Assembly (NCBI RefSeq): GCF_004331075.1
Contig: NZ_SJNX01000001.1
Coordinates: 310,001-374,000 of the forward strand
Length of the DNA: 64,000 nucleotides
Direction of reading: 5' to 3'
DNA from: Acinetobacter brisouioides
Lineage (GTDB): Bacteria > Pseudomonadota > Gammaproteobacteria > Pseudomonadales > Moraxellaceae
In this document: positions 7,051 to 15,828 of the stretch, in pieces
Layout: every line of letters begins with the position of its first letter
How positions within the stretch are numbered: the first letter of the stretch is position 1
Program-made: the position numbers and the translations under genes
The notes under the pieces: generated by a model
What the model was told of the DNA's origin: nothing
The model's database searches: none
Seen by the model: only the letters and a program-made list of their open reading frames with translations

Positions 7051-7656
7051 TTAATGTGCGATGAGCCACGTTGCTGCCAACATAATCATGCTCGCTGAGC
7101 AAGCATCGATCCATTTTTGTTTACGCTGATCAAAACCTGCTTTTTCTGTCACTTTGACCACAATAAATGACAGCACTAAATATACGATAATACATGAACT
7201 TATAAAAATTAAAGACAAGAGTAAGCCTTCAACCACAGGATTGCCTTTGCTATGCATAAATTGCGGCAAGATTGCAAAATAAATCAGCATGACTTTTGGA
7301 TTGAGTAGTGAAGTGACAAAACCTTTGCGAATGGGGTTATGGGTATGTGCCGCAGATAACCGAATACCTTTACTCTGAAATGCTGAACGAAATAACTGAA
7401 TTGAGAGGTACACCAAATATGCAACCCCAAAAAATCGAATCGCATTAAATAGCATCGGATAGGACACTATAATCGCAGAAATTCCCAGTGCAACCAGTAC
7501 CGAATGTACCAAATAGCCAGAACACACGCCAAAAGTTGCCATCATGCCTGACTTAAAATCTTTACCCATCGCCTGTGAAAGCACAAATAACATATCGGGC
7601 CCTGGCGTTAATACCAGCGAAATGATGGTGAGTGTAAATAATGTAAAGTCAGACAT
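7051..7656 (-). CDS. LysE/RhtB-family amino-acid exporter
   Basis: 201 residues with about six hydrophobic helices. The N-terminus carries the family signature LTPGPDMLFVLSQAMG (17-32) followed by a glycine-rich helix. Family members export amino acids or related small molecules from the cytoplasm by proton antiport; the substrate cannot be read from sequence. The gene is divergent from an Lrp/AsnC-type regulator only 114 bases away, the usual arrangement in which the regulator senses the amino acid and controls the exporter. Whether that control survives depends on the frameshift in the regulator gene. Confidence 0.88.
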   Translation of the reverse strand: MSDFTLFTLTIISLVLTPGPDMLFVLSQAMGKDFKSGMMATFGVCSGYLVHSVLVALGISAIIVSYPMLFNAIRFFGVAYLVYLSIQLFRSAFQSKGIRLSAAHTHNPIRKGFVTSLLNPKVMLIYFAILPQFMHSKGNPVVEGLLLSLIFISSCIIVYLVLSFIVVKVTEKAGFDQRKQKWIDACSASMIMLAATWLIAH

Positions 7657-7770
7657 CGCTTTTGCCTTTAAAACAACAAAATAAAGTCTCTATATTGTCC
7701 AAAAAAACCAATCAAATAGGGTTGCAAATATTCTATAATCAAAACAATTTTTCAAATTTAATTCTAATTT

Positions 7771-8266
7771 ATGAAACAAATTAATAATTCTATATCAATA
7801 AAACTCGATCGTATCGACAAAAATATTATTCTACATTTGCAACAGAATGGGCGTATTCAAAATAATGATCTTGCAAAACAAGTAGGATTGTCCCCTTCAT
7901 CGTGTTTACGGCGAGTAAAACTACTTGAGGAAGCTGGCGTGATTCGAGGTTATACCACGCTCGTTGATCCACAAAAGGTGGGGCTTTCTTTAATTTTATT
8001 TTCTCGGATTTGGCTGATTGGACAGGATGCCGAAACCATTGACTGTTTTATTGAAGCCATGAAAGAGTTACCACAGGTCATGGAGTGCTACATCATATTA
8101 GGAGAATGTGATGCCATGCTCAAAGTTGTAGTTCCCGACTTGGAAAGTTATCGTAAGTTTCAGTCTAGCCATTTGACCAAAAAAAAATGGGATTACCAGT
8201 GTGAAAACTGATTTACCAAGTCAATTTATTAAACAAAGCTATCAATTACCTTTAGATGAGTACTAG
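7771..8266 (+). pseudogene. Lrp/AsnC-family regulator with a homopolymer frameshift
   Basis: As read, the frame stops at 8211 after 146 residues, with the odd tail KKKWDYQCEN. The N-terminal half is an AsnC-type helix-turn-helix (LDRIDKNIILHLQQNGR, then DLAKQVGLSPSSCLRRV), and the middle is the ligand-binding RAM domain (GECDAMLKVVVPDLESYRKF). After nine A (8179-8187) the family-like ending continues in another frame: dropping one A gives NGITSVKTDLPSQF and a stop at 8264-8266, for 164 residues. That repaired stop sits three bases from the convergent xerC stop, a natural fit. So the gene is either truncated in this strain, variable in the A-run, or carries a sequencing error. It is divergent from the LysE-type exporter and probably its regulator. 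Confidence 0.85.
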
Positions 8267-8269
8267 ACC

Positions 8270-9181
8270 CTACTTCTGCGCACGGGGATGTGCTTGATCA
8301 TAAATTTTCGCCAAATGATCAAAATCAATATGGGTATAGATTTGTGTGGTGTTCAAGTTGCTATGCCCGAGCATTTCCTGAATGCTACGCAGGTCACCAC
8401 TTGCAGAAAGTAAATGACTAGCAAAACAATGTCTAAGCAAATGTGGGTGTAAATCAACACTGACCCCTGCTCGTAATGCTTGGGCTTTGACACGATTTTC
8501 AATCTGGCGCGGTGTTAGGCGCGTACCGCGTTGAGAAATAAAAATTGCGCTGCTTGGTTGTAAAGTCTGTCCCATCCAAATTGCTGCCATTTGCAGCCAG
8601 CGATGTAAGCTCTGCTTAGCTTTTTGTCCAAAAGGTACAATACGGGTTTTATCACCTTTACCCGTTACACGCACTTGTTGTCGCTCAAAATCAAGATCTT
8701 GCAGATTCAAGCTTTGTAATTCTGCCAAGCGCAGGCCACTGGAATAAAGTAGTTCCAACATGGCTTTATCTCTAAGCCAGAGCTGTTGCTCTAAAGGCTT
8801 TTCAGGTGCAGGCTGTTCCAAAATTTGTAAAATGGTTTCAATATCCAGCATACCTGGCAGCGCCCGTGGTTGCCGCTTTAAACGGAAATCTTTGGTTGGG
8901 TTTTGTGCAATTTGCTGTTGCTGTTCCACCCACTGCATAAACTGGCGAATTGCACTTAAAGCACGCTGTAAACTACTGGTCGCCAGTTGTTGCCGTTCTA
9001 CTTTTTCTGCCAAGTATTCACGTAGGTCTGCCGAGGCAATATTATTAAGGTCTAATTTCTTGCGCTGGCAAAAATTGAGAAAATCCCGAACATCACGCTC
9101 ATAAGCTGACAATGTATGCTCGGACTGCTGCTGAATTTTACGAGAATTCAGCCATATATGAAGCAATTCGAACATATCCAT
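8270..9181 (-). CDS. xerC: Tyrosine recombinase XerC
   Basis: 303 residues. With XerD, XerC resolves chromosome dimers at dif during division. The N-terminal SAM-like core-binding domain spans about 1-95. The catalytic domain holds the full tyrosine-recombinase set: Arg151 (SSGLRLAEL), Lys175 (TGKGDK), His247 and Arg250 (HPHLLRH), His273 (LGHSN) and the nucleophile Tyr282 (IYTH). XerC is preferred over XerD because of its place downstream of lysA, dapF and the SseB-like gene, the cluster seen in pseudomonads and relatives. The upstream gene ends 16 bases before the start, so the two are co-transcribed. Confidence 0.93.
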   Translation of the reverse strand: MDMFELLHIWLNSRKIQQQSEHTLSAYERDVRDFLNFCQRKKLDLNNIASADLREYLAEKVERQQLATSSLQRALSAIRQFMQWVEQQQQIAQNPTKDFRLKRQPRALPGMLDIETILQILEQPAPEKPLEQQLWLRDKAMLELLYSSGLRLAELQSLNLQDLDFERQQVRVTGKGDKTRIVPFGQKAKQSLHRWLQMAAIWMGQTLQPSSAIFISQRGTRLTPRQIENRVKAQALRAGVSVDLHPHLLRHCFASHLLSASGDLRSIQEMLGHSNLNTTQIYTHIDFDHLAKIYDQAHPRAQK

Positions 9182-12695: not shown

Positions 12696-14093
12696 TTAGT
12701 CTTTAGTGATTTTTTTGGGCCTAAAAAAGAAATACCCGATCAGCAAAATCAAGAACCAAATTGGGCTCACCTTTAGAGCTTTTAAAGTATCTGGCTCCAA
12801 AGACAAGACATAAATCATACAGATGAAGAAAATGATCACCACCCAACACGTTACCAAACCACCAGGCAATTTAAACTTGGACTGTTGGTGTAACTCTGGA
12901 CGCGTTTTATAGTAGTTGATGTAACTCCAAATAATAATCAGCCACACACAAATAAACAGTATCGTTGACAGGGTGGTTGCGAGCGTAAAGGCTTCAATCG
13001 TATTGGGTACAAAATACTGAAGTGCCGCGCCACCAAGTAAACAAAATGCCGAGAAATATAAAGCATTGGCAGGCACTAAACGCGGACTTAATTTACCAAA
13101 CAGTTTTGGCCCTTGCCCTTCACGCGACAAACCAAAAAGCATACGGCTGGTCGAAAACACACCACTGTTCATAGAAGACATGACTGAAGACAGCACCACC
13201 AAATTCATAATAATAGCTGCCGCCGCAATACCCGCATGACTAAACAAATTTACGAATGGACTGACAGTTGGATTAATCTTGTCCCACGGCGTGACTGACA
13301 TCACAATCACCAATGCAAAAACATAGAAAATAATAATCCGCACAGGAATCGAGTTGACCGCTTTAGGCAAGTTACGTTCTGGATCGCGGGTTTCTGCTGC
13401 GGTTGTACCAACCAACTCCACACCGACAAAAGCAAAAATGGCAATCTGAAAGCCTGCTAAAAAGCCCGTCGAACCTGTTGGAAAGAAACCACCATTTGCC
13501 CACAAATGAGTAAATGAAGCAACCTCACCTGTAGGTGAAGTAAATCCTGTAAAGATCATCCATAAACCAACAGCGATGAGTACAACAATCGCAATAATCT
13601 TGACCAAAGCAAACCAGAATTCCATCTCACCAAACAGTTTCACGGTGACCAGATTCAAACCCATAATAAAGAAAATCGAGGCGACACAAATCAGAGCACT
13701 GTCTCCAGGGCTAAATGGATGTCCACCATTAAAAAATTGCAAATAGTTAATAATCGCAGATAGGTCAGCAATCCCGATGGTGATCCAGCACAACCAGTAT
13801 GTCCACCCCACAAAATAGCCTGCCCAAGGACCAATTAAGTCCGTAGAAAAGTCTATAAATGACTTATAATTTAAATTGGAGAGCAAGAGTTCACCCAAGG
13901 CTCGCATGACAAAAAACACCATCAAACCAATAATCATATAAATAAATACAATCGATGGCCCCGCCAAACTGATGGTTTTACCTGAACCCATAAACAAACC
14001 TGTTCCAATTGCACCGCCAATTGCGATCAACTGCAAATGGCGGTTGGACAGGCTTTTACTTAGCTCATTGTGTTCGACTGACTGTTGTTTCAT
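12696..14093 (-). CDS. CycA-like amino-acid permease (copy 1)
   Basis: 465 residues with about 12 transmembrane helices, from the amino acid-polyamine-organocation superfamily. It matches E. coli CycA (D-serine, D-alanine, glycine) closely: GGAIGTGLFMGSGKTISLAG in helix 1, FAGFQ/LAGFQIAIFAFVGVELVG in helix 6 and FSTSRMLFGLS in helix 8. Such permeases take up small neutral amino acids by proton symport; the exact range is inferred. A second gene of the same type lies 322 bases upstream on the same strand, with its own terminator, so the two look like a tandem duplication expressed separately. Confidence 0.87.
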   Translation of the reverse strand: MKQQSVEHNELSKSLSNRHLQLIAIGGAIGTGLFMGSGKTISLAGPSIVFIYMIIGLMVFFVMRALGELLLSNLNYKSFIDFSTDLIGPWAGYFVGWTYWLCWITIGIADLSAIINYLQFFNGGHPFSPGDSALICVASIFFIMGLNLVTVKLFGEMEFWFALVKIIAIVVLIAVGLWMIFTGFTSPTGEVASFTHLWANGGFFPTGSTGFLAGFQIAIFAFVGVELVGTTAAETRDPERNLPKAVNSIPVRIIIFYVFALVIVMSVTPWDKINPTVSPFVNLFSHAGIAAAAIIMNLVVLSSVMSSMNSGVFSTSRMLFGLSREGQGPKLFGKLSPRLVPANALYFSAFCLLGGAALQYFVPNTIEAFTLATTLSTILFICVWLIIIWSYINYYKTRPELHQQSKFKLPGGLVTCWVVIIFFICMIYVLSLEPDTLKALKVSPIWFLILLIGYFFFRPKKITKD

Positions 14094-14415: not shown

Positions 14416-15828
14416 TTAAGCTTTCTTTTTCTTAAACATATAGCCAATAGCTAAAATCAGCAACCACAATGGGCTGATCAATAGTGACTGGCGAGTATCT
14501 GGTTCAAGTACCAAAATACCAATGGTGAAAATAAAGAATGCAATCACAACATACGACATCAATACACCGCCAGGCATCTTAAATATCGATTTTTCATGCA
14601 GCTCAGGGCGTAATTTGCGGTAACGAATATAGTTCACCATAATCAGGATCCATACCGATACGAACAGAATTACAGACAAAGTTGTTGCCAAAGTAAATGC
14701 GGTAATGGTGTCTGGTACAAAGAACTGAAGTACTGCACCACCCATAATACATGCGCAAGAGAACATCAAACCATTTGCAGGTACAGCGCTTTTTGACAAT
14801 TTACCCAATTTTTTCGGTGCCTGACCATCTTTTGCCAAACCGTACAACATACGGCTGGTTGAGAAGATCCCGCTGTTCATTGATGACATAACCGATGACA
14901 AGACCACCAAGTTCATGATCACCGCAGCAGTTGGAATACCTGCCATCAGGAACAATTCAACAAATGGGCTCTTGTTTGGAATCACATGATTCCAAGGAAT
15001 CACAGACATCACGACAGTCAATGACAATACGTAGAATAAAATCACACGTACAGGAATTGCATTGACTGCTTTTGGCAAGTTGATGTGCGGATCTTTGGTT
15101 TCAGCAGCCGAAGTTCCGACAAGTTCCACCCCAACAAATGCGAAAATCGCAATCTGGAAGCCTGCCAAGAAACCTTCAACCCCTTTCGGGAAAATACCCC
15201 CATGCGACCAAATGTTGCTTAAAGCTGCCACATCACCATTTGATGAATGATAGCCTGTAAACACCATAAATGCGCCCGCACAGATTAAAGCAATAATTGC
15301 TACAATCTTAATGATTGCGAACCAGAATTCAGTTTCCCCAAATAAACGTACTGTCAACAGGTTCAGGAACATTAAGAAAAGTACACAACCCGCACTAATT
15401 AACGCTTGCCCCGCAGGTGTAAACTGCATATCTGGTGGGAGCCAGAAAGTGAGGTAGTTAATTACAGCAGTCAGGTCAGCCATACCCGTAAGTACCCAGC
15501 CAACCCAATACGTCCAACCCACATAAAAACCTGCTTTTGGACCAATCAAGTCATAAGACATGTCCACAAAAGATTTATAGTTCAGGTTAGACAGGAGAAG
15601 TTCACCTAATGCACGCATTAGGAAAAAAACCATAATTCCAATAATAAAATAAATTAATAAAATAGATGGGCCTGCCAATGAGATGGTTTTACCCGACCCC
15701 ATAAACAAGCCAGTGCCAATGGCACCCCCAATAGCGATTAACTGCAAATGACGATTGTGTAAATTACGTTGTAATTCATGAATCGAATCGTCAGGTGCGT
15801 TAATATCATTTAGCTCGTTAAAACTCAT
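14416..15828 (-). CDS. CycA-like amino-acid permease (copy 2)
   Basis: 470 residues and about 12 transmembrane helices, very similar to copy 1. It shares NRHLQLIAIGGAIGTGLFMG, the helix-6 FLAGFQIAIFAFVGVELVG block and SGIFSTSRMLYGLAKDG. It has a slightly longer polar N-terminus and more divergent loops (for example FWLPPDMQFTPAG). It is predicted to import D-alanine, D-serine, glycine or related amino acids. It is followed by its own terminator, and its promoter lies in the gap divergent from radA. Confidence 0.87.
   Translation of the reverse strand: MSFNELNDINAPDDSIHELQRNLHNRHLQLIAIGGAIGTGLFMGSGKTISLAGPSILLIYFIIGIMVFFLMRALGELLLSNLNYKSFVDMSYDLIGPKAGFYVGWTYWVGWVLTGMADLTAVINYLTFWLPPDMQFTPAGQALISAGCVLFLMFLNLLTVRLFGETEFWFAIIKIVAIIALICAGAFMVFTGYHSSNGDVAALSNIWSHGGIFPKGVEGFLAGFQIAIFAFVGVELVGTSAAETKDPHINLPKAVNAIPVRVILFYVLSLTVVMSVIPWNHVIPNKSPFVELFLMAGIPTAAVIMNLVVLSSVMSSMNSGIFSTSRMLYGLAKDGQAPKKLGKLSKSAVPANGLMFSCACIMGGAVLQFFVPDTITAFTLATTLSVILFVSVWILIMVNYIRYRKLRPELHEKSIFKMPGGVLMSYVVIAFFIFTIGILVLEPDTRQSLLISPLWLLILAIGYMFKKKKA

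Follow-up and report, generated by a model that had tools for sequence, protein, structure and literature searches.

AzlB of Bacillus subtilis is an Lrp-like regulator. Four suppressor mutations in the gene of this repressor, two of them truncating, free the amino-acid exporter AzlCD and protect the cells against a toxic amino acid, according to two reports (PMC10882977, PMC11005379). In the first of these reports, one of the truncating mutations is described as a stop at codon 130 (PMC10882977). In archaeal members of the Lrp/AsnC family, dimers are reported to form via strands β2 and β5 of the RAM domain, larger assemblies use β5 and helices, and the smallest DNA-binding unit is the dimer (PMC2995911). 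In tssM of Citrobacter rodentium, the gene is described as cut at a run of 11 A's behind which the frame remains open; transcriptional slippage at the run rescues the gene through inserted A's, and both products are needed (PMC4256274). In inlA of Listeria, a poly(A) run is reported to vary at high frequency (PMC2831843).

The locus considered here is a truncated Lrp/AsnC-type gene in an Acinetobacter genome, divergent from a gene for a LysE-type translocator. It lies in a window of 64,000 nucleotides, the whole stretch of DNA that was analysed, to which the positions below refer. Among the entries listed in a literature search, no title or abstract opening concerned this locus; the search covered homopolymer phase variation in Acinetobacter, Acinetobacter Lrp and LysE, Lrp structure, A. 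brisouii and frameshifts at A-runs of Lrp genes. The frameshift is of an ordinary kind, and the family it affects is well known.

The frameshift site and the truncated regulator

The regulator gene begins with the ATG at 7771 on the plus strand, and reading of its sequence places nine A's at 8179-8187, the point where the frame is lost. The frame ends with a stop codon at 8209-8211, giving a product of 146 amino acids (7771-8211) whose final 8 residues are off the family frame. 3′ of the run, the phase of the relatives' proteins carries on to a stop at 8264-8266. This phase, which begins at 8186 and reads NGITSVKTDLPSQFIKQSYQLPLDEY, corresponds to an abandoned C-terminal part of 26 codons and a stop (8186-8266, plus strand), still family-like as judged from alignment to relatives and from the substitution counts given below. 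Three bases separate its stop from the end of xerC at 8270 on the opposite strand. The third phase, reached via one inserted A, meets a stop after five codons.

From end to end, the nearest relative's 164-residue protein can be aligned with the window, in two pieces and two frames, with identities of 97.8% (residues 1-138) and 96.4% (residues 137-164); the match of the tail is therefore not due to chance. This two-frame alignment bears out the proposal of the initial annotation that a frameshift in the nine-A run cuts the regulator, leaving a frame that ends at 8211 with a tail unlike the family. The repaired phase was also correctly foreseen, with its family-like ending and a stop codon at 8266 that leaves three bases before that of xerC, the relatives ending as predicted, and the Pfam domains agree with the assignment of the gene to the Lrp/AsnC regulators. 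As for the nine-A run per se, it is not unusual here. The window holds one A-run of at least nine, for 3.3 expected from its dinucleotide content, and 34 exact nine-A runs are counted on both strands of the whole genome.

The N-terminal AsnC-type winged helix-turn-helix is present in the window product, the HTH_AsnC-type profile being matched over positions 1-42 of 42 (E 1.3e-15), and Pfam HTH_24 is matched as well. The RAM, or ligand-binding, domain is incomplete: the match to AsnC_trans_reg covers profile positions 10-57 of 73, for 10-67 of 73 in the intact relatives L032, L033 and L034. By its domain content, the window product is a truncated derivative of an Lrp/AsnC family member. Intact L034 aligns with E. 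coli Lrp (PDB 2gqq) over 150 residues (E 4.8e-33) and has the same domain order; the AsnC-type helix-turn-helix is also found in the window gene. The lost residues, 139-164 in L034 numbering, map to the C-terminal end of the 2gqq chain, from about position 138 on. From this place at the domain end, we infer that the lost part contains β5, the last strand of the RAM domain. Some of the leucine-response mutations of E. coli Lrp map to the same region. Compared with the Lrp/AsnC family, the window product is devoid of the terminal portion of the domain for ligand binding and oligomerisation, and the regulator is probably inactivated. Structure predictions for the truncated protein and for intact L034, for which 22 and 21 similar sequences were aligned, gave mean pLDDT values of 51 and 53, respectively, which denote low confidence.

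The run and the tail in related genomes

All relatives compared belong to other species, and the comparisons are accordingly made between species. The nearest named records are those of Acinetobacter sp. ANC 3789 and A. brisouii, and the window is 93.2% identical to the nearest genome (G132) over 64 one-kb pieces. Each of the 60 named Acinetobacter loci (L032-L091) has an in-frame tail behind the site. The A-run found there reaches at most 8 A's in 25 of these loci, 5 in 30 and 2-4 in 5; nine A's are found in none. A comparison of related loci had been set beforehand as a test of gene decay, and decay stands after it; loss of the gene is likewise supported by a truncation that is private to this genome facing a tail kept in frame by every named relative. 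A match on the plus strand is lacking for 12 of the 92 loci collected, namely 11 minus-strand loci, which have no stop inside the match, and the archaeal locus L092.

A sample of the genus, which overlaps the named set in many of its genomes, yields an orthologue of at least 80% identity in 72 of 149 genomes, this genome included. The match is free of stops in all 71 other orthologues, and the open frame has at least 161 codons in 70 of them. The exception, G069, has an open frame of 123 codons that runs up to the edge of its contig, its match starting no earlier than residue 42. Among the genomes examined, the break is private to this one.

Substitutions with respect to the four nearest relatives were counted separately on the two sides of the break, the tail offering about 15 sites for synonymous and 63 for non-synonymous changes. 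With respect to L034 and L035, the tail carries 9 and 8 synonymous differences and no amino-acid difference; with respect to L032 and L033, it carries 13 and 11 synonymous differences and one amino-acid difference each. Because amino-acid changes would prevail after a long lack of constraint, the break is either recent or not real. If the base is real, these counts indicate that the frameshift event is recent.

The divergent exporter and the shared control region

Upstream of the regulator, on the minus strand, lies an intact gene for a LysE-type translocator of 201 amino acids (7051-7656; Pfam LysE, E 3e-34, profile positions 1-189 of 193), which its co-occurrence with the regulator designates as the probable target. 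On the other side, the convergent xerC gene (8270-9181, minus strand; Pfam Phage_integrase) is intact, 303 of its 303 residues being matched in the nearest relative. Farther along the window, two minus-strand neighbours (12696-14093 and 14416-15828) encode paralogues of ~465-470 residues, about 66% identical to each other, as revealed by cross-matching of a relative's proteins.

With a threshold of E 1e-50 for the presence of the exporter, both regulator and exporter are found in 71 of 149 genomes and neither is found in 77. The exporter never occurs alone, and the regulator does so once, in G001, where no LysE match reaches E 1e-50. Among the 60 named loci, lysE adjoins lrp in 57, with start-to-start distances of 106-127 bases between the matched genes in these loci. 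At L090, the locus is cut by a contig end, and two metagenome loci, L072 and L082 (L072 alone having been read for open reading frames), have a whole regulator with no lysE beside it. Given L072, L082 and G001, the regulator may have other targets. Gene content and gene order together provide good evidence that the Lrp and LysE-type pair forms a regulator-exporter module.

The two genes share a control region (7657-7770). Alignment of the window with 11 relatives reveals in it a strongly conserved stretch at 7714-7739, AAATAGGGTTGCAAATATTCTATAAT, adjoining the regulator start. This stretch may hold an operator together with the -10 box of lrp; no inverted symmetry was detected in it at the cut-off applied.

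Origin and meaning of the nine-A allele

The most satisfactory account, which we hold to be probable, is that of a recent slippage insertion that removed the RAM end and probably inactivated the regulator associated with the divergently encoded exporter of LysE type. In this model, one additional base would have lengthened the A-run of lrp to nine in this strain, and the last 26 of 164 residues would have been exchanged for 8 out-of-frame residues. The short protein would retain the DNA-binding domain and, having lost the RAM end and the tail, would fail at forming stable dimers and larger assemblies and at amino-acid sensing. The exporter would then lose its specific control. It would be derepressed if the regulator is a repressor, and would not be induced if the regulator is an activator. 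The data establish the truncation, its lack in the relatives examined, a tail recently under constraint and the linkage with the exporter; that the base is real, that the function is lost and that the exporter is affected is what we infer.

A sequencing or assembly error, with an intact gene in the cell and a run called one base too long, would bear the same signature, a long homopolymer lengthened by one base in a single genome and followed by a tail still under constraint. With 302 eight-A runs in the genome, one such error would be unsurprising on some platforms. However, when the 318 genes of G132 were compared with 364 kb of this genome, 258 had a counterpart, 8 were flagged and two showed a frame change, that of lrp being the only one at a homopolymer. 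The second frame change (L180, near 70.7-71.1 kb of contig C1) lies near the end of a 131-residue gene of the nearest relative and coincides with a 2-base difference outside any homopolymer. The other six flagged genes have in-frame stops, five of them at residues 3-10, reflecting start codon choice; the sixth stop, in a gene with 81% identity, interrupts residue 41 of 181. In the reverse comparison, 305 of the genome's own genes gave 257 counterparts and 5 flagged cases, three of which extend over two frames; the case followed from this set is L095, described below. Furthermore, among 30 of the 302 eight-A runs, all 12 located inside matched genes keep the frame, although one (L156) has a partial match of only 40 of 81 residues. 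Nine-A runs were considered at 30 of their 34 loci. Two of them, in the genes for PdxA (L101) and for a Gre factor (L106), leave the frame intact; both fall inside conserved domains, and both proteins are complete. Two other nine-A loci were set aside. At L116, a 69-aa open reading frame had been considered as another truncation; of the relatives shown, the two closest share the nine A's without having a comparable gene, and the frame is most likely non-coding. The run at L095, in a 319-aa CRP-like open reading frame, was left out of the intact coding runs, since a frame change near residue 74-79 of the counterpart in the relative indicates that the true start probably lies downstream of the run. 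The assembly is thus not error-prone at homopolymers in general. The comparison thus favours a real mutation, and an error is held to be rather unlikely.

If the mutation is real, it may still be asked whether the nine-A gene is partly productive, RNA polymerase slippage yielding some full-length regulator transcripts, as in the tssM case. A reporter study with the E. coli polymerase describes slippage as undetectable below 8 A's (PMC6260861), and the present run has 9. Rescue would require here that one A is lost or two are gained in the transcript, whereas insertions are reported to prevail in E. coli when the run consists of A or T (PMC5574713), so that a single step would go the wrong way; the phase reached after one inserted A stops after five codons. 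In the reporter study, no deletion was detected with the E. coli polymerase on the poly(A) runs tested, but the same study also cites a predominance of deletions by this polymerase on A11 in vitro (PMC6260861). On balance, such a rescue is quite improbable. It may also be imagined that the run acts as a reversible switch kept by selection, its length changing often and toggling the control of the exporter in part of the population; the initial annotation had listed a variable switch beside a fixed loss and a sequencing error. High-frequency poly(A) variation is possible, as the report on inlA illustrates (PMC2831843), and the eight A's of 25 of the 60 relatives are one step from the broken form. 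However, the run is shorter or interrupted in the 35 others, with 5 A's or fewer, and is therefore not conserved, whereas that of a selected switch should be. Moreover, all-AAA coding at 57 Lys-Lys sites falls below the level predicted from codon use (25 observed for 33.4 expected; one-sided p 0.018 with relatives treated as independent), and the broken state occurs in no relative examined. These observations do not bear out a maintained switch, which we consider very unlikely. An extension of the same idea, according to which the nine-A allele would be a natural "exporter-on" state, some cells losing and regaining export control as a hedge against toxic amino acids and the eight-A relatives representing the poised form, would be a most improbable scenario.

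Returning to the loss of the regulator by a recent slippage insertion, two known systems help to situate the locus. The likeness to tssM is that an A-run interrupts both genes, while the remainder of the frame stays open beyond it. The cases differ in that tssM has 11 A's, is rescued by inserted A's and needs both products, as reported (PMC4256274), whereas in the window gene the run has 9 A's, one inserted A brings no rescue and the break is found in no relative examined. The module itself is the more lasting result. A tight Lrp/LysE-type pairing in about half of the sampled Acinetobacter genomes names a regulator together with a candidate target, and this link is testable. If the base is real, the 146-residue frame is to be annotated as a broken 164-residue gene. 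With AzlB and AzlCD of B. subtilis, the locus has in common a mutated or truncated regulator beside an amino-acid exporter, whose control by the regulator is known in the case of AzlCD (PMC10882977, PMC11005379). However, AzlCD consists of two parts, belongs to another exporter family and is encoded in the same operon as its regulator, whereas here the LysE-type gene is divergent and is a putative target. By analogy, selection as in the azlB case could explain the nine-A allele. Provided that the base is real, the locus represents a further instance of a homopolymer slip that removes the regulator of an exporter, and can be compared with the azlB mutations selected in B. subtilis.
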